Source of the DNA: Candidatus Mediterraneibacter vanvlietii
GTDB lineage: Bacteria > Bacillota > Clostridia > Lachnospirales > Lachnospiraceae
Length of the DNA: 55,189 nucleotides
Direction of reading: 5' to 3'
NCBI GenBank assembly: GCA_019113645.1
Contig: DXGZ01000019.1
Span: 1-55,189 of the forward strand
The position numbers were made by a program, and so were the translations under genes. Of the stretch, positions 1 to 55,189 are shown in pieces. Numbering within the stretch: the first letter of the stretch is position 1; every line of letters begins with the position of its first letter. A model generated the notes under the pieces. The model did no database searches, was not told the origin of the DNA, and was given only the letters and a program-made list of their open reading frames with translations.

Positions 1-2
1 AG

Positions 3-312
3 TAATTACCGATCTGGATGGAACAGAAAACAGACCCTATTGCAAAAACTTTTCTGCCGGGAGGGAGACTGTGAGCAGCTGACTTCGGAAGGGTGATTAG
101 GAAAAGTTACGGCTTTGGGCAGGGACTTTAGGACTGACAATGAGATTGTCTGAGCCGCAGGCGAGTTGCTCATTGTCAGTCCTGCTTTTTGTCCATGCCC
201 GGAGCCGTTAGTTTTCCTTATTGCCCGGAGCGGAAGCTGAACACAGTTTCCCTCCCGGCAGAATACGGTCTGCATATGCTCCTGTTTTCGTCTGATTTGA
301 AACCGGTAATTA
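3..312 (-). repeat. Foldback element copy E1, behind glyA
   Basis: A long imperfect palindrome. The outer ends pair (3-11 with 304-312) and the tip is a perfect 15-bp helix (130-144 with 169-183) around a 24-nt loop (145-168). Between these, the left arm and the reverse complement of the right arm can be aligned along their whole length. Read on the minus strand, the direction of glyA transcription, the tip loop is CAACTC, then GCC-TGC-GGC, then TCAGACAAT. Conserved boxes are at 81-90 (GACTTCGGAA on the plus strand) and 229-234 (AGCGGA). It begins 20 bp behind the glyA stop codon and has no credible gene. The family is shared with the copies at 24471, 24986 and 55008. Its function is unknown; transcript termination or mRNA 3'-end protection is an inference. 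Confidence 0.85.
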
Positions 313-331
313 TTGAACTGATAGCTGACTA

Positions 332-1567
332 TCAGCAGAGGGGATACTTCTCTGTGAGTTCTGCCACAAGTTTCTTTGCAGCTTCCACGTTATCCTCGCT
401 CTCGATCACCATGGCGATGATCTCTGCGATTTTGTCCATGTCATCTTCTTTCATTCCACGTGTTGTGACAGCCGGAGTTCCGAGTCTCACGCCGCTTGTC
501 ACAAACGGAGAACGGGGATCATTCGGGATCGTGTTTTTATTGCAGGTAATATGAGCGTCATCCAGACGTTTTTCCAGTTCTTTTCCGCTCACGTTATTCT
601 CAGTCAGGTCTACGAGCATCAGATGATTATCCGTGTCGCCGGATACAATCTTAACCCCGCGTTTCTTCAGACCTTCGCAGAGCGCTTTCGCATTCTTTAC
701 TACCTGTTTCTGGTATTCTTTAAACTCCGGCTCAAGCGCTTCTTTGAAGCATACTGCTTTCGCCGCAATCACATGCATCAGCGGGCCTCCCTGAATTCCC
801 GGGAAAATCGCTTTGTTGAAGTTAAACTTCTCATTCATCTCATTGCTGGAGAGAATCATGCCGCCGCGGGGTCCGCGCAGCGTCTTATGTGTCGTGGTCG
901 TTGTCACATGAGCATATGGAATCGGGCTCGGATGCAGTCCTGCTGCCACAAGTCCCGCGATGTGCGCCATATCAACCATAAGGTATGCGCCCACCTCATC
1001 CGCAATCTCACGGAAACGCTTGAAATCAATCGTCCGCGCATATGCGCTTGCCCCGGCGATAATCAGCTTCGGATGACACTCCTTCGCGATCTCCTGAACA
1101 CGGTCATAATCAATCACGCCTTCGTCATTCACACCATATGGAACCACATGATAATATTTTCCGGACATATTGACCGGTGATCCGTGGGTCAGGTGTCCGC
1201 CGTGATCCAGGTTCATTCCCATGTAGGTATCTCCCGGCTGCAGAATGGCAAACATTACTGCCATATTCGCCTGCGCTCCTGAGTGGGGCTGCACATTGGC
1301 ATACTCACATCCAAAGAGTTTCTTTGCTCTCTCTCTGGCGAGTTCTTCCACCTCATCCACGCACTGGCATCCGCCGTAATACCTCTTGCCCGGATAGCCT
1401 TCCGCGTATTTGTTCGTCAGCGGGCTTCCCATTGCAGCCATCACTGCCTTGCTCACCCAGTTCTCGGAAGCAATCAGCTCGATATGAGAGTTCTGTCTCT
1501 CCATCTCCGCCATGATTGCATCGGCAATCTCCGGATCTGTATTCCGGATCTCATCAAAGTCGTACAT
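332..1567 (-). CDS. glyA: Serine hydroxymethyltransferase
   Basis: A 411-residue PLP enzyme that interconverts serine and glycine while loading or unloading methylene-tetrahydrofolate; cytosolic. The PLP-lysine motif [15 protein letters not shown] is intact, as are the N-terminal SENW and the GGxxCVDEVE segments typical of bacterial GlyA, and the length is normal for the family. The start at 1567 is chosen over an upstream ATG at 1606 because GGAGGG lies 8 bases ahead of it and the protein then begins at the usual place (MYDFDEI). It appears monocistronic, with its own promoter at 1617-1646. The 3' end runs straight into foldback element E1. Confidence 0.97.
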
Positions 1568-1616
1568 CGTCCTATCCCTCCATTTATTCAGTATTTCATT
1601 TATCACTTACCTGCCC

Positions 1617-22974: not shown

Positions 22975-24465
22975 ATGATTTACGAATCAATCAAAAAACT
23001 TGTACAGTACGGAATTGACACCGGACTGACACCTGGATCCGAGCGCATCTATACAACCAACCTTCTCCTCGACCTTATGCAAGAGGATGAATATGAAGAT
23101 GTGGACTGCGATCTCAGTCATATTATTCTTGAAGATATATTAAAAGATCTGCTCGACGAGGCAGTTAACAGAGGAATCATTGAGGACAGTGTGACATACC
23201 GCGACCTGTTCGACACTAAACTCATGAACTGCCTGATGCCCCGCCCGGCGCAGGTACAGGAAAGATTCTGGAAAGAATACGAGAAATCACCTGAGACAGC
23301 TACAGAATTCTACTATAAATTGAGCCAGGACAGTGATTATATCCGCCGCTACCGGATTAAGAAAGACCGCAGATGGACGGTTGACACCGAATACGGCACC
23401 CTGGACATTACCATTAACCTTTCCAAACCGGAAAAAGATCCGAAAGCCATCGCAGCGGCCGGCGCGGCGAAGTCATCTTCCTATCCGAAATGCCAGCTCT
23501 GTATGGAGAACGAGGGATATGCCGGCCGGGTTAATCATCCGGCAAGGGAAAACCACCGCATCATCCCGATCACAATTCAGGGAAAGAAATGGGGATTCCA
23601 GTATTCTCCTTATGTGTACTACAATGAGCACTGCATCGTATTCAACGGTGAACATATCCCGATGAAAATCGACAGAAACGCATTTGCCAAGCTGTTCGAT
23701 TTCATCAAGCTGTTCCCGCACTATTTCCTCGGTTCAAATGCCGATCTGCCGATCGTTGGCGGCTCCATCCTGAGCCACGATCATTTCCAGGGCGGAAACT
23801 ATACTTTTGCCATGGCTAAGGCGCCGGTAATTGAAAGCTTTACTGTGGCAGGATACGAGGATGTGACAGCCGGGATCGTCAAATGGCCGCTCTCTGTCAT
23901 CCGTCTTCAGGGAGCTGATCCGGACCGTATTATCGATCTGGCAGAACATGTTCTGAACAAGTGGCGTTCCTATACTGATGAGGCGGCATTCATCTTTGCC
24001 GAGACTGACGGAACTCCACACAACACGATCACACCGATCGCCCGCAGGAAAGGAGATCTGTATGAGCTTGATCTCACCCTGCGGAATAACATAACAACCG
24101 ATGAGCACCCGCTGGGAGTATACCACCCTCACGCAAAGCTTCATCATATTAAAAAAGAAAATATCGGGCTTATCGAAGTTATGGGACTTGCCGTACTTCC
24201 GGCCCGCCTGAAAGGTGAGATGGAACTTCTCAGGGAATACATCCTCGAGGGCAAAGATATCCGAAGCAATGATGCAATCGCAAAACACGCTGACTGGGTT
24301 GACGAATTCCTTCCGTCATATCCTGATGTGAATACTGAAAATATCGATCACATCCTTGAACAGGAAGTCGGAAAAGTATTCTGTCAGGTGCTTGAAGATG
24401 CGGGAGTATATAAATGCACTGAAGAAGGACTGCAGGCCTTCCGGAGATTTGTGAGCGTGCTGTAA
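22975..24465 (+). CDS. galT: UDP-glucose--hexose-1-phosphate uridylyltransferase, class II
   Basis: 496 residues; swaps UDP between glucose-1-P and galactose-1-P. This is the long Firmicutes (GalT2) type, not the 350-residue E. coli type. The active-site histidines are in GGSILSHDHFQGGNYTFAMAKAP; CQLCMENEGYAGR and NEHCIVFNGEHIPM are further family marks. galE is not in the window and must be elsewhere. The stop codon is followed within 6 bp by foldback element E2. Confidence 0.96.
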   Translation: MIYESIKKLVQYGIDTGLTPGSERIYTTNLLLDLMQEDEYEDVDCDLSHIILEDILKDLLDEAVNRGIIEDSVTYRDLFDTKLMNCLMPRPAQVQERFWKEYEKSPETATEFYYKLSQDSDYIRRYRIKKDRRWTVDTEYGTLDITINLSKPEKDPKAIAAAGAAKSSSYPKCQLCMENEGYAGRVNHPARENHRIIPITIQGKKWGFQYSPYVYYNEHCIVFNGEHIPMKIDRNAFAKLFDFIKLFPHYFLGSNADLPIVGGSILSHDHFQGGNYTFAMAKAPVIESFTVAGYEDVTAGIVKWPLSVIRLQGADPDRIIDLAEHVLNKWRSYTDEAAFIFAETDGTPHNTITPIARRKGDLYELDLTLRNNITTDEHPLGVYHPHAKLHHIKKENIGLIEVMGLAVLPARLKGEMELLREYILEGKDIRSNDAIAKHADWVDEFLPSYPDVNTENIDHILEQEVGKVFCQVLEDAGVYKCTEEGLQAFRRFVSVL

Positions 24466-24470
24466 ATCTG

Positions 24471-24810
24471 AGGTTGTCTGATTCTTCCGAGCAGGAGAAT
24501 CGTTCGAGAACTGCGGAATATAGTTTGTAAAGCCGTATTCAAAGGGGAGGGGCATTGTCTTTTGCTCCGCTTCATGGAGTAAGAAAAACTAAGGGATCTG
24601 ACAAATGACTAAAAACAACAGGGCAGATGGGCAACTCGTTTCACTCAGACAATCCCATCTGCCCTGTTAACGTCATTGTGCCAGATCCCAAGTTTTTTAA
24701 CTCCATTCCGAAGTCGCCAAATCCAACGCCCCTCCTCTTTGAAAAGCGATCCAGACTTATATTCCGCAGTTCTCTGCGTTCTTCAAATCGGAAGAGTCAG
24801 AGCAAACGCA
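24471..24810 (+). repeat. Foldback element copy E2, behind galT
   Basis: A perfect 15-bp tip helix (24617-24631 with 24654-24668) encloses a 22-nt loop: CAACTC, GT-TTC-AC, TCAGACAAT. The lower arms align over about 140 bp, out to 24477-24490 against 24788-24801 (13 of 14 pairs). The boxes of the family are TCCGCT at 24566-24571, AAAAACTAA at about 24584-24592 and TTCCGAAGTC at 24706-24715. It lies in the sense orientation relative to galT. Short open frames inside are by-products of the palindrome. Confidence 0.85.
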
Positions 24811-24811
24811 G

Positions 24812-24950
24812 ATTTAGCGAAAACAGGGGTGCAGTCGGAATGTAACTGGCAGGGTGAAGCATGGCTGAAAAACGAAAATAAAGTGGGAAAAGGGGGACAA
24901 ATGACAGTCAAAGAGTGTTATTTGCTAATGTCCCGGTTTCAAATTTGAAA
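24812..24950. other. Spacer between E2 and E3, possibly a decayed third copy
   Basis: No gene is seen. GAAAACAGGGGTG at about 24820 matches the outer arm of copy E4 (55043 onward), and GGCAGGGTGAAG downstream resembles the next block of that arm. A short GGGACA/TGTCCC pairing exists further on, but the conserved tip loop is absent. This could be a remnant of another foldback element; the match is weak. Confidence 0.3.
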
Positions 24951-24985
24951 TCTTAGTCAATAACCTTCCGTCTTCTTTTTTTGTG

Positions 24986-25352
24986 CTTGAATCGTGAGTA
25001 TGTCGAACAGGAAACTGACCGGCTAGAACAGCGCAGAAATCCGCGGGAGATAATTCGCGGATGTCTTTCGGAGGGAAGGGGATGCCGGAGGCGGTGACTT
25101 CGGAGGGAGCTATAGAAAAAGTTAATGAGCAGGAAAACTGCGTTGGATTGAAAATGGAAATTGTTTGAGCGAAGCGAGTTGTTCCATTTTCAATCCTGTC
25201 TTTAGCAGGTTTCCCGCTCATTTAGTTTTTCTTAGTTCCCGTAGCGGAACCGAATCCGGTATCCCCTTCCCGAAGAATACGTTTTCAATAATGATCTCCT
25301 GCGGATTTCGGATTTGTTCTGTCTGAGTTTTCTATGCGACAAACTCAGATTT
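24986..25352 (-). repeat. Foldback element copy E3, behind the hydrogenase operon
   Basis: Perfect 15-bp tip helix (25145-25159 with 25182-25196) around a 22-nt loop that reads, on the minus strand, CAACTC, GC-TTC-GC, TCAAACAAT. The arms align for about 150 bp each, with one strong outer block (25034-25051 against 25294-25311). The boxes GACTTCGGA (25096-25104), AGCGGA (25243-25248) and TTAGTTTTT (about 25222-25230) are the family marks on the plus strand. The right edge reaches the stop codon of the hydrogenase gene, so the end of that mRNA enters the element at once. Confidence 0.85.
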
Positions 25353-27093
25353 AATTAATCGTCCGCTTTACGTATGTGGTATGCAGGATATGATGTGCCT
25401 TCTCACTTCCCGGCGCCCCAAGATACTCATTGTACAGCCGCTTGATGGACGGATTCTCGTGGGACTTCCGGATTGTCTTCGCCGCGTCATTGTCATAGAG
25501 GGCTTTTGCACGCAACGCTTTCACATCCTCGAAGTTGCGGACATCCGCGTGTACCTGCGGCTGACCGCCGCCGTTTACGCAGCCGCCCGGGCAGCACATG
25601 ATCTCAATAAAGTGATAGTCTGCCTCTCCGGCTCTCACTTTATCCATGATTACTTTTGCGTTGCTCAGTCCGGATGCTACGGCCACTTTCACCTCCATAT
25701 CCGCTACATGATACGTTGCTTCTTTGATTCCTTCCGTTCCGCGGACTTCTGTGAACTCAACCTTATCCAGTGTCTGTCCGGTCAGCGTCTCCACAGCGGT
25801 ACGGAGAGCAGCTTCCATAACCCCGCCTGTTGCTCCGAAGATGACTCCTGCTCCGGAAGATTCTCCCAGAGGATCATCGAATCCTTCATCCGGCAGGCTG
25901 CGGAAATTGATACCAAGCTTGCGGATCAGGCGGGCAAGTTCACGGGTTGTGATGGAGATATCCACATCCGGCACGCCTGCTGCGTACTGGTCATCTCTCT
26001 GGAGCTCGAATTTCTTCGCCGTACACGGCATCACGCTGACGCAGACGATATCTTCCGGCGCGATTCCCATCTTCTCCGCATAGTAGGTCTTGGTAATGGC
26101 TCCGAACATCTGCTGCGGCGATTTACAGCTGGACAGATGAGCCAGCTGATCCGGATAATAATGCTCGCAGTATTTGATCCATCCCGGCGAACAGGAAGTC
26201 ATCATCGGAAGAACGCCTCCGTTCTGTACACGGTCAATAAATTCATGAGCCTCTTCCATGATCGTCAGATCCGCACTGAAGTCTGTATCAAATACCTTGT
26301 CGAATCCGATTCTTCTCAGGGCTGCCGCCATCTTTCCTTCCACGTCGGTTCCCATGGGATAACCGAACTCTTCGCCGAGAGCGGCACGCACGGACGGAGC
26401 CGGCTGTACAACCACATGTTTTGTCTCATCGGCAATTGCTTCCAGCACATCGTCTATATTGCTCTTCTCATAGAGCGCGCCTGTCGGACAGGCTGCGATA
26501 CACTGACCGCATGATACACAGCTTGTATCTCCAAGTCCCATCTCAAAAGCTGATCCGATAAATGTGGCAAATCCTCTGTTGTTCGGACCGATCACTCCCA
26601 CGGTCTGGACTTTCTCGCACACTGCCGAACATCTCCGGCAGAGGATACATTTGTTATTGTCACGCACCATATGAATGGCGCTCTCATCCAGCTCATAATG
26701 ATTCATCTCACCCGCGAAATGATCTTCATCCGTCACGCCCAGCTCCTGGCAGAGTTCCTGCAGTTCGCAGTGTCCGCTTCTCACGCAGGAGAGACACTTC
26801 TTATCATGGTTTGAGAGAAGAAGTTCCAGGGTTCTTCTTCTGGCATCAAGAAGCCTCTGTGTATTCGTCTGTACTTCCATCCCTTCCGCTACCGGATAAA
26901 CGCAGGAAGCTACAAGTCCTTTTGCTCCTTTTACCTCTACCACACACATACGGCATGCGCCGATTTCATTGATGTCTTTTAAATAACACAGCGTCGGGAT
27001 TCGGATTCCGGCAGCATGGGCTGCCTCAAGGATTGTAGAGCCCGCCGGCGCGGTTACATTCAAGCCGTTAATTTTTAAATTCACATTTTCCAT
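25351..27093 (-). CDS. hndD: [FeFe] hydrogenase catalytic subunit, NAD(P)H-linked group A (HndD/HydA)
   Basis: 580 residues. N-terminal [2Fe-2S] domain (Cys 36, 47, 50, 64), His/Cys-bound [4Fe-4S] (His 96, Cys 100, 103, 109), two further [4Fe-4S] sites (CILCRRCSAVC; CVSCGQCIAACP), then the H-cluster domain with TSCSPGW (299-305), MPCTAKKFE and MCCPGGCVNGGGQP, and the small-subunit-like tail YNEYLGAPGSEKAHHILHTTY. With hndA, hndB and hndC it should form a cytosolic complex that makes H2 from NADH, probably with ferredoxin (electron bifurcation). Position 302, directly before the proline of the first motif, is Ser where the textbook motif has Cys. Confidence 0.95.
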   Translation of the reverse strand: MENVNLKINGLNVTAPAGSTILEAAHAAGIRIPTLCYLKDINEIGACRMCVVEVKGAKGLVASCVYPVAEGMEVQTNTQRLLDARRRTLELLLSNHDKKCLSCVRSGHCELQELCQELGVTDEDHFAGEMNHYELDESAIHMVRDNNKCILCRRCSAVCEKVQTVGVIGPNNRGFATFIGSAFEMGLGDTSCVSCGQCIAACPTGALYEKSNIDDVLEAIADETKHVVVQPAPSVRAALGEEFGYPMGTDVEGKMAAALRRIGFDKVFDTDFSADLTIMEEAHEFIDRVQNGGVLPMMTSCSPGWIKYCEHYYPDQLAHLSSCKSPQQMFGAITKTYYAEKMGIAPEDIVCVSVMPCTAKKFELQRDDQYAAGVPDVDISITTRELARLIRKLGINFRSLPDEGFDDPLGESSGAGVIFGATGGVMEAALRTAVETLTGQTLDKVEFTEVRGTEGIKEATYHVADMEVKVAVASGLSNAKVIMDKVRAGEADYHFIEIMCCPGGCVNGGGQPQVHADVRNFEDVKALRAKALYDNDAAKTIRKSHENPSIKRLYNEYLGAPGSEKAHHILHTTYVKRTIN

Positions 27094-54988: not shown

Positions 54989-55007
54989 GTACAGTTCCGC
55001 TATTTAG

Positions 55008-55189
55008 TTAATTAGGTTCGCTGACTTTTGGAGACGATATTTCCGAAAACAGGGGTGGCCTTCCAAAACATATTCTGCAAGGGTGGAGACTGTGTTCGGC
55101 TTCCGCTCCAGGCGCTAAGGGAAACTAAGGAGTTCCGGGGACGGACTAAAAACAGGGACAGACGGTGAGCAACTCGCATTCGCTCAGAC
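55008..55189 (+). repeat. Foldback element copy E4, cut by the window end
   Basis: Only the left arm and 20 nt of the tip loop (55170-55189: CAACTC, GC-ATTC-GC, TCAGAC) are visible. The arm aligns with the reverse complement of the right arm of E1: GAAAACAGG, ATATTCTGC, GGAGACTGTGTTCGGC, TTCCGCTCC and AAACTAAGG in the same order. The family box TCCGCT is at 55102-55107. It starts about 120 bp ahead of dppB and is not behind any gene end seen here. Confidence 0.8.

Follow-up and report, generated by a model that had tools for sequence, protein, structure and literature searches.

The window, a 55,189-nt stretch of DNA that is one entire contig (G000:C85) of a 3.2-Mb draft genome in 144 contigs, holds four copies of a giant hairpin. 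These copies have roughly an even chance of being a non-autonomous mobile element, built on a hairpin unit of 300–400 nt that often occurs twice, in inverted orientation, with a linker in between. Such an element would move as a folded single strand, most likely single-stranded DNA exposed at replication; an enzyme acting in trans would recognise its tip and conserved internal loops, and joining would leave no obvious target duplication. A gene would come through an insertion at its stop codon unharmed, since the end letters of the element can complete that codon; the hairpin would from then on form the 3′ end or terminator of the gene. In behaviour, and by analogy, the element is what may be called a giant counterpart of the REP/BIME repeats.

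Four Copies in the Window and Many More in the Genome

The features of the window that matter here, with their coordinates, strands, and the evidence for each, are as follows.

1–325, plus strand: E1, right-hand hairpin of a family-A element, its 5′ side cut by the contig start (fold, core match, end motif)
332–1606, minus strand: glyA (serine hydroxymethyltransferase), whose 3′ end adjoins E1 (Pfam PF00464; ORF list)
22975–24465, plus strand: galT (galactose-1-phosphate uridylyltransferase) (Pfam PF01087, PF02744; ORF list)
24464–25352, no strand assigned: family-B composite of E2, a linker, and E3 in opposite orientation (genome recurrence, ends of aligned copies)
24464–24815, minus strand: E2, giant hairpin after the galT stop, its plus core on the window's minus strand (fold, core match, sequence)
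24632–24652, minus strand: apical motif of E2, variant TTGTCTGAGTGAAACGAGTTG (sequence and core alignment)
24816–24987, no strand assigned: linker between E2 and E3, left boundary sharp, right approximate (sequence)
24988–25352, plus strand: E3, giant hairpin, its 3′ side against the hydrogenase stop codon (fold, core match; 5′ boundary approximate)
25161–25181, plus strand: apical motif of E3, TTGTTTGAGCGAAGCGAGTTG (sequence)
25351–27093, minus strand: [FeFe] hydrogenase large subunit gene (Pfam PF02906, PF02256; ORF list)
54999–55189, minus strand: E4, left-hand part of a family-A element, starting GCTATTTAGTT and cut by the contig end (sequence, end motif)

The original prediction had called four foldback copies from the letters alone, and all four were borne out; E1–E3 are indeed giant imperfect hairpins, with z scores of about −16 against shuffled sequence. 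RNA folding gave −166.9 kcal/mol for E1 (1–312; z −16.9), −172.9 for E2 (24471–24810; z −15.7), and −183.3 for E3 (24986–25352; z −15.7), with none of 100 shuffles as good in any case; E4, being cut, was left out. E1 and E4 probably break off at the contig ends because they are repeats in a short-read assembly, and many further contigs of the host genome start or stop inside copies. E2 and E3 had been counted as separate copies; both are present, but they are the two halves of one 889-bp composite with a linker of ~170 bp, which recurs as a unit (on contig C53, for example, at 87% over query positions 64–882).

The copies had also been described as lacking target-site-like ends, which proved wrong: the ends are sharp and conserved. 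DNA searches resolved two main families, A (E1 and E4), bounded by GCTATTTAGTT..AACTAAATAGC, and B (E2/E3), bounded by AAATCTGAG..CTCAGATTT. The end letters of the E2/E3 composite, as bounded, are part of both flanking TAA stops. The final two letters of the galT stop (24463–24465) and the last two, in gene sense, of the hydrogenase stop (25351–25353) fall within the element, so that the two stops overlap its ends as T/AA and TT/A in the sequence, although the assignment of the shared A letters at these junctions is a choice. At the other end of the window, 6 nt separate the end of E1 from the glyA stop codon.

How many copies does the host carry, and how far do they extend among its relatives? 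We built a covariance model, R1, of 170 positions from 17 hairpin cores. In the window it matched the cores of E1 (71–241, plus; 154.2 bits), E2 (24559–24725, minus; 149.3 bits), and E3 (25086–25255, plus; 163.5 bits). With 150 of 837 candidates scored, the host genome gave at least 117 matches at E ≤ 0.001, a number far beyond the four from which multiple copies had been foreseen, although in a few rows an element may be counted a second time, on its other strand or as a half on another contig. At least 83 of them span the whole model and at least 34 are partial, mostly at contig ends. The search that had been proposed thus turned up further copies in the host, in its genus, and in other Lachnospiraceae: R1 matched 48 of 58 genomes of the genus. 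In a sample of 250 genomes from the family, where filters were stricter and each genome had 11 candidates scored, it matched 26, the host among them. Arrangement varies, from 17 core matches in one genome (G060), far apart and as single hairpins, to 68 in another (G042), many of them paired. The linkers of family A, as in locus L018 at about 1300–1345, contain a GC-rich inverted repeat, GGCGCGGC..GCCGCGC, also found in another species (L081). Carriage by phages or plasmids was rejected, as E2/E3 had no match in a phage collection and a family-A composite none in a plasmid collection; the tip pattern described below matches six stretches of IMG/VR.

A Conserved Fold with a Favoured Strand

The fold is under constraint. 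In a MAFFT alignment of the 17 cores, 90.3% of pair cells are standard, and 41 of the 48 core pairs show two-sided changes, a number reached by none of 500 shuffles. The covariation score was 0.664, against 0.268 ± 0.015 for shuffled alignments (0 of 500 reached it) and 0.12–0.22 for slid ones; on the weakest measure, further pair types, 5 of 500 shuffles did as well. The structure comes from the same 17 sequences, which favours it, and kinship among them was not removed. Apart from the tip, the cores share the conserved boxes GACTTCGGA, TTAG, GTTA, and TTTTTAG. This strong covariation is what the prediction of a structured element had called for.

Which strand does the folding? We collected 136 distinct cores by means of the tip pattern, requiring that either strand fold below −55 kcal/mol, and chose 52 representatives less than 90% identical to each other. 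The apical motif, TTGTYTGAGC-nnn-GCGAGTTG or a variant, lies on the better-folding strand, here called plus, in all 52. With the tip included, this strand folds better in 52 of 52 cores by RNA energies (mean −85.0 vs. −70.8) and in 51 of 52 by DNA energies, a comparison that is free of any bias from the choice of pairs. G-T cells also outnumber A-C cells on the TTGTYTGAGC strand, 188 to 46 among the representatives, a count biased by a pair list derived from that strand; the G-T excess does not discriminate RNA from single-stranded DNA. The original prediction had left the choice between these two, and the favoured strand sharpens that choice and does not settle it. When the tip was masked, at loci collected by a scan of genome contigs for the tip, plus remained favoured at 20 of 21 Mediterraneibacter loci and at 3 of 5 in other Lachnospiraceae (1 against). 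As whole hairpins, E1 and E3 obey the plus-strand rule, and E2 folds about equally well on both strands (−177.8 for the strand of the plus core, −180.6 for the other).

These data also bear on a rather unlikely alternative: that each hairpin is a noncoding RNA gene on the plus strand, transcribed from the linker side outward and ending against its neighbour, with tip and loops that bind a protein and with mobility as a secondary matter. The excess of G-U over A-C on one strand would suit such a gene, as would covariation like that of structured RNAs and, in the tip sequence, a tandem G-A beside GNA; we take the tip to be K-turn-like. A promoter is harder to find: a consensus scan of 24300–25500 gave a single promoter-like site, which lies outside the element and is no more than the 1.5 expected from shuffles. 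An RNA gene would moreover have no obvious reason to dock at stop codons of the opposite strand, as these hairpins do, and a scan of the window with 4,227 Rfam families returned no match at gathering score, in agreement with what had been predicted. At E ≤ 10, nine matches appeared between 24400 and 25420 (eight microRNA precursor models and one Leu_leader), all far under their cutoffs.

Docking at Stop Codons

Where do the mobile hairpins, as we read them, sit with respect to genes? Among the outer family-B ends of the host genome, 34 of 40 flank a gene 3′ end, and in 30 of the 40 the last letter of the stop codon lies no more than 8 nt from where ATCTGAG begins; the count covers ends that do not face a linker and have at least 200 nt of flank. 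Family A is without preference for gene 3′ ends, with 13 of 34 outer ends in the host facing 3′ ends and 21 facing 5′ ends (one row flagged as linker-facing was left out).

In three other genomes (G060, G042, and G068), the contexts of 41 loci were 18 convergent, 21 tandem, 1 divergent, and 1 one-sided, based on simple ORF calling and a tip pattern that missed the second hairpin at some G042 loci. Convergent gaps are enriched in G060, where they make up 6 of 12 element gaps vs. 18 of 147 other gaps (P = 0.003), and none of the 12 is divergent vs. 26 of the 147 (P = 0.22). The docking is also polar. For 49 unpaired hairpins—those with no second tip detected within 900 nt, edges being set at the tip ± 170—a stop codon lay within 60 nt on the 3′ side only in 35, on the 5′ side only in 2, on both sides in 3, and on neither in 9. 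The folded strand is therefore, as a rule, antisense to the gene that it abuts. In 2 of the 12 G060 cases, the gene on the 3′ side starts there instead of ending.

A rule of replication strand was considered and rejected. In G060 (16 regions fetched, 12 elements scored), the plus core was on the lagging strand in 8 cases and on the leading strand in 4. At L479 and L493, where a lagging-strand gene ends at the hairpin's 3′ side, polarity tracked the gene; the strand counts thus give no proof of single-stranded DNA.

The pckA locus, compared at 30 loci of 47 matching genomes, host included, shows docking against a native gene end. In the host, the TAA is followed by the element, whose far side is cut off by the end of a contig; in relatives, different sequence comes after the same TAA, and by eye it mostly includes a terminator-like hairpin. 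In two genomes, G055 (L370) and G048 (L371), a giant hairpin lies beyond the terminator-like hairpin, and in G044 (L369) and G059 (L373) the terminator-like stretch is missing. The series gives the impression that the native terminator was lost once a hairpin had arrived; later deletion is thus another way in which a hairpin can come to lie close to a stop. Behind pckA in another genome (L351, G005) stands a hairpin with a degenerate tip, TTGTTCGAACTAATGCGAACTG.

Such placement could also mean that the hairpin is part of the message, an mRNA 3′ untranslated structure that terminates, protects, or processes it, with pairs serving two convergent genes. Docking at stop codons, the enrichment in convergent gaps, the replacement of native terminator-like sequence at pckA, and the galT/hydrogenase gap, where in the sequence each of two hairpins faces its own gene, are all in keeping with this idea. 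We nonetheless consider it unlikely. The mRNA-sense strand is the weaker folder in all 52 cores, although stable at a mean of −70.8; family A is frequently found 5′ of genes (the 21 of 34 ends above); and the window element has no T-run terminator signature beyond shuffles, the consensus scan of 24300–25500 giving one terminator-like site, within E2 (24748–24727, minus), against a shuffle mean of 1.3.

Element Ends and Empty Sites

Do the ends and their flanks bear the marks of a known type of transposition? One candidate is a MITE, derived by deletion from a DDE (double-strand) transposon that has terminal inverted repeats; the foldback would then be only a by-product. The conserved inverted ends, the composites of about 890 bp, and the patchy distribution are what such a derivative would display. 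Aligned copies, however, have no flanking direct repeat at the element ends by eye, and a TA duplication would fit L001 and not most family-B ends. No longer, transposase-bearing copy occurred among the composites inspected; paired cores lie a few hundred nucleotides apart, which leaves no room for a transposase, and many copies are broken by contig ends. Covariation in 41 of 48 pairs together with one favoured strand is likewise unexpected of a by-product, and we regard a MITE origin as improbable.

Movement itself is best seen upstream of rplY, compared at 30 loci of 42 matching genomes, host included. In the host, a family-A composite ends 7 nt before a TTGACA common to relatives; in 29 of 29 loci from other species, the 0.9–1.3 kb inspected contain no tip, the tip pattern serving as detector. 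The site is occupied in the host and empty in the 29 other species; therefore, the elements move. The galT locus was compared at 30 loci of 53 matching genomes, host included. By eye, hairpins of the same layout stand behind galT at the loci of seven other species (L105, L106, L107, L110, L116, L126, and L127), and most remaining loci are without a hairpin. Behind the galT orthologue of G061 (L121), the large hairpin present is of another kind, CCGGAACACAAGT..ACTTGTGTTCCGG, and lacks the tip motif. That the hairpins are instead old gene-end structures, inherited vertically and homogenised within each genome by gene conversion with little movement, is very improbable: quasi-palindromes can be corrected by template switching, and by eye a hairpin does recur behind galT in several species, but the rplY sites are empty and the galT-adjoining copies belong to different families in different species.

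Candidate Enzymes

Which enzyme might move the elements? RAYT-like genes were found in 38 of 58 genomes of the genus by a search with a 16-row RAYT alignment. Four of the proteins scored 70–82 bits against NCBIfam NF047646, whose cutoff is 80, one of them above it. By length and motif, in our own placing, they resemble TnpA-Y1 subclass 2.1. For that subclass, PMC6006769 reports that no REP was found nearby. At several loci the main RAYT type adjoins a frame of 467–479 aa; the single such frame tested is a class II aminoacyl-tRNA synthetase. The host has a single-copy RAYT-like gene at L410 (G000:C77:11800–15200; gene at 1094–1912, minus), and a similar neighbour frame is present in several genus genomes.

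RAYT as the mover is not supported. Hairpins are present in 33 of 38 genomes with RAYT and 15 of 20 without (Fisher P = 0.29), and hairpin counts, with up to 48 per genome counted, do not differ significantly (Mann–Whitney P = 0.14). For genomes at least 90% complete the figures are 20 of 23 vs. 9 of 13 (P = 0.22 and 0.09 in the two tests), and one genome that is 100% complete, G057, has 38 hairpin matches and no RAYT. With no significant association across the 58 genomes after searches with Pfam PF01797 and with the alignment, RAYT was rejected as a required mover. Nor did hairpin tips occur in 20 regions fetched around Y1-transposase matches, 16 of which supplied the aligned RAYT proteins. 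A recurrent neighbour gene was likewise rejected: 137 loci yielded five clusters of neighbour genes that recur in four loci or more, of which the largest is in our reading ABC-transporter-like and the others are short or odd frames, and no RAYT match at E = 0.01.

The Same Tip in Other Phyla

How widespread is the tip beyond the Lachnospiraceae? The pattern TTGTYTGAGCN{2,5}GCGAGTTG, run over genome contigs, matched at least 107 stretches, at least 80 of them titled. The titles name Bacillota, Nitrospirota, Mucispirillum, Bacteroides, Elusimicrobia, Proteobacteria, and Gastranaerophilales, which by our own placing amount to about seven phyla; a few matches (Rothia, Cytophagales, Hungatella) look like chance. 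In these groups, too, the tip sits on hairpins. For the 120 matches whose flanks are long enough, at least 8 of 10 Watson–Crick pairs stand beside the tip in 59 (2.9% with swapped flanks) and at least 7 in 87 (10.5% with swapped flanks), which leaves 33 with fewer. R1 matched at full length in other Lachnospiraceae genera, with up to 112.7 bits at loci most of which had been fetched with R1 itself, and more weakly at full length in Anaerovibrio (34.7 bits), Bacteroides (33.6), and Mucispirillum (31.3); matches that cover little beyond the tip score about 15–26 bits.

With the tip masked, plus is favoured in Mucispirillum (5 of 5), Proteobacteria (5 of 5), Bacteroides (2 of 2), and Anaerovibrio (2 of 2). 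Plus and minus are even in Elusimicrobia (1 vs. 1) and among miscellaneous loci (2 vs. 2), untitled loci divide 20 to 10, and the tip hairpins of Nitrospirales are without strand bias (17 vs. 19). Pooled, the named loci outside Lachnospiraceae stand at 34 vs. 22 (P = 0.03).

In Nitrospirales an integron attC array was rejected: six same-strand copies occur in 8 kb of L192, and their feet, GACGCC/GGCGTC, are without R boxes as judged by reading the sequence, the computed box test having covered the window copies only. In L192, L194, L208, L249, L251, and L253, a second, different hairpin lies downstream of the tip hairpin; it is GGTTTTGG..CCTTTTGCCGAAACAAAAGG in Nitrospirales, to which L192 belongs, and of the type TTCTTTTGGT..CAAAAAGAAAAG elsewhere (all by eye).

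Because the cross-phylum loci were chosen by their tip, these similarities in sequence suggest, and do not show, that the tip hairpins of different phyla are one family. A broader reading, possible but doubtful, is that they form a bacterial class of mobile hairpins read as single strands, spanning about seven phyla and united by TTGTYTGAGC-GNA-GCGAGTTG rather than by their stems. Such hairpins would dock at stop codons in antisense, act as an attC-like tag without an integron, and be moved by an enzyme of single-stranded DNA.

Relation to Known Elements and Significance

How does the element compare with known systems? How palindromic repeats and sites of the attC type come to lie precisely at stop codons has long been puzzling. 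The folded single strand of an integron attC site is antisense to its gene and located at the stop codon, a geometry shared by the hairpins described here. They differ in that no attC box pair (RYYYAAC..GTTRRRY) is present at the feet of E1–E3, which have isolated internal matches or none, and in that they are dispersed at ordinary loci, with no cassette array noticed in the loci inspected. The MITEs RUP, ERIC, and Correia are multicopy, intergenic elements with inverted ends and without coding capacity. Our elements are like them on all these points, no coding capacity having been seen, and unlike them in their larger hairpins, their core covariation, and the lack of an obvious target duplication or visible parent transposon. 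They are long, structured, and non-coding, as are OLE, GOLLD, ROOL, HEARO, and raiA; unlike the large RNAs of Rfam, they match none of its 4,227 families at gathering score.

In behaviour the parallel is with REP, BIME, and REPIN repeats, which RAYT (TnpA-REP) moves and which are described in PMC3733652 as dispersed, high-copy extragenic palindromes, single or in inverted pairs, for the most part in convergent or tandem gaps, beside stop codons. According to the same source, REPs of the two species analysed lie mostly less than 20 bp from gene 3′ ends and in convergent gaps, and GTAG REPs are reported to supply stop codons (PMC3733652). The docking habit therefore has a precedent at one-tenth the size. 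Placement at gene 3′ ends in convergent or tandem gaps is shared by family B and by the copies of other species, and not by family A. A REP is a palindrome of 20–40 bp, whereas the hairpins here, at 300–400 nt, are about ten times larger and have a conserved 21-nt tip and covarying stems. The GTAG/CGTC foot tag of REPs is missing from the 20-nt feet of E2 and E3, the two hairpins tested, which upholds, with the attC result, the earlier view that the copies are neither REP nor attC. A REP also has a cognate RAYT flanked by repeats; here the 20 Y1 regions contained no tips, and RAYT is not needed. We file the element with the dispersed extragenic palindromes and not as a member of REP or attC.

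The original prediction spoke of an undescribed structured element. We found no description of such elements in the CC-licensed PMC literature, mainly titles and abstracts, and a search of CC-licensed titles and abstracts with the tip strings found no paper on hairpin repeats. The inverted pairs and the empty rplY sites extend the prediction: the element is also mobile, not a structured RNA alone. Its surprising parts are the exact docking of family B, the antisense folded strand, and the cross-phylum tip. Similar copies stand at the stop codons of ordinary genes by the dozen, and their polarity and strand preference can be measured, which makes the enzyme and its target rule testable. Because the elements appear to replace native terminator sequence, they may rewire gene 3′ ends in gut Lachnospiraceae. 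If the tip shared by distant phyla belongs to a single system, it would imply a widespread enzyme that has yet to be tied to hairpins of this kind.
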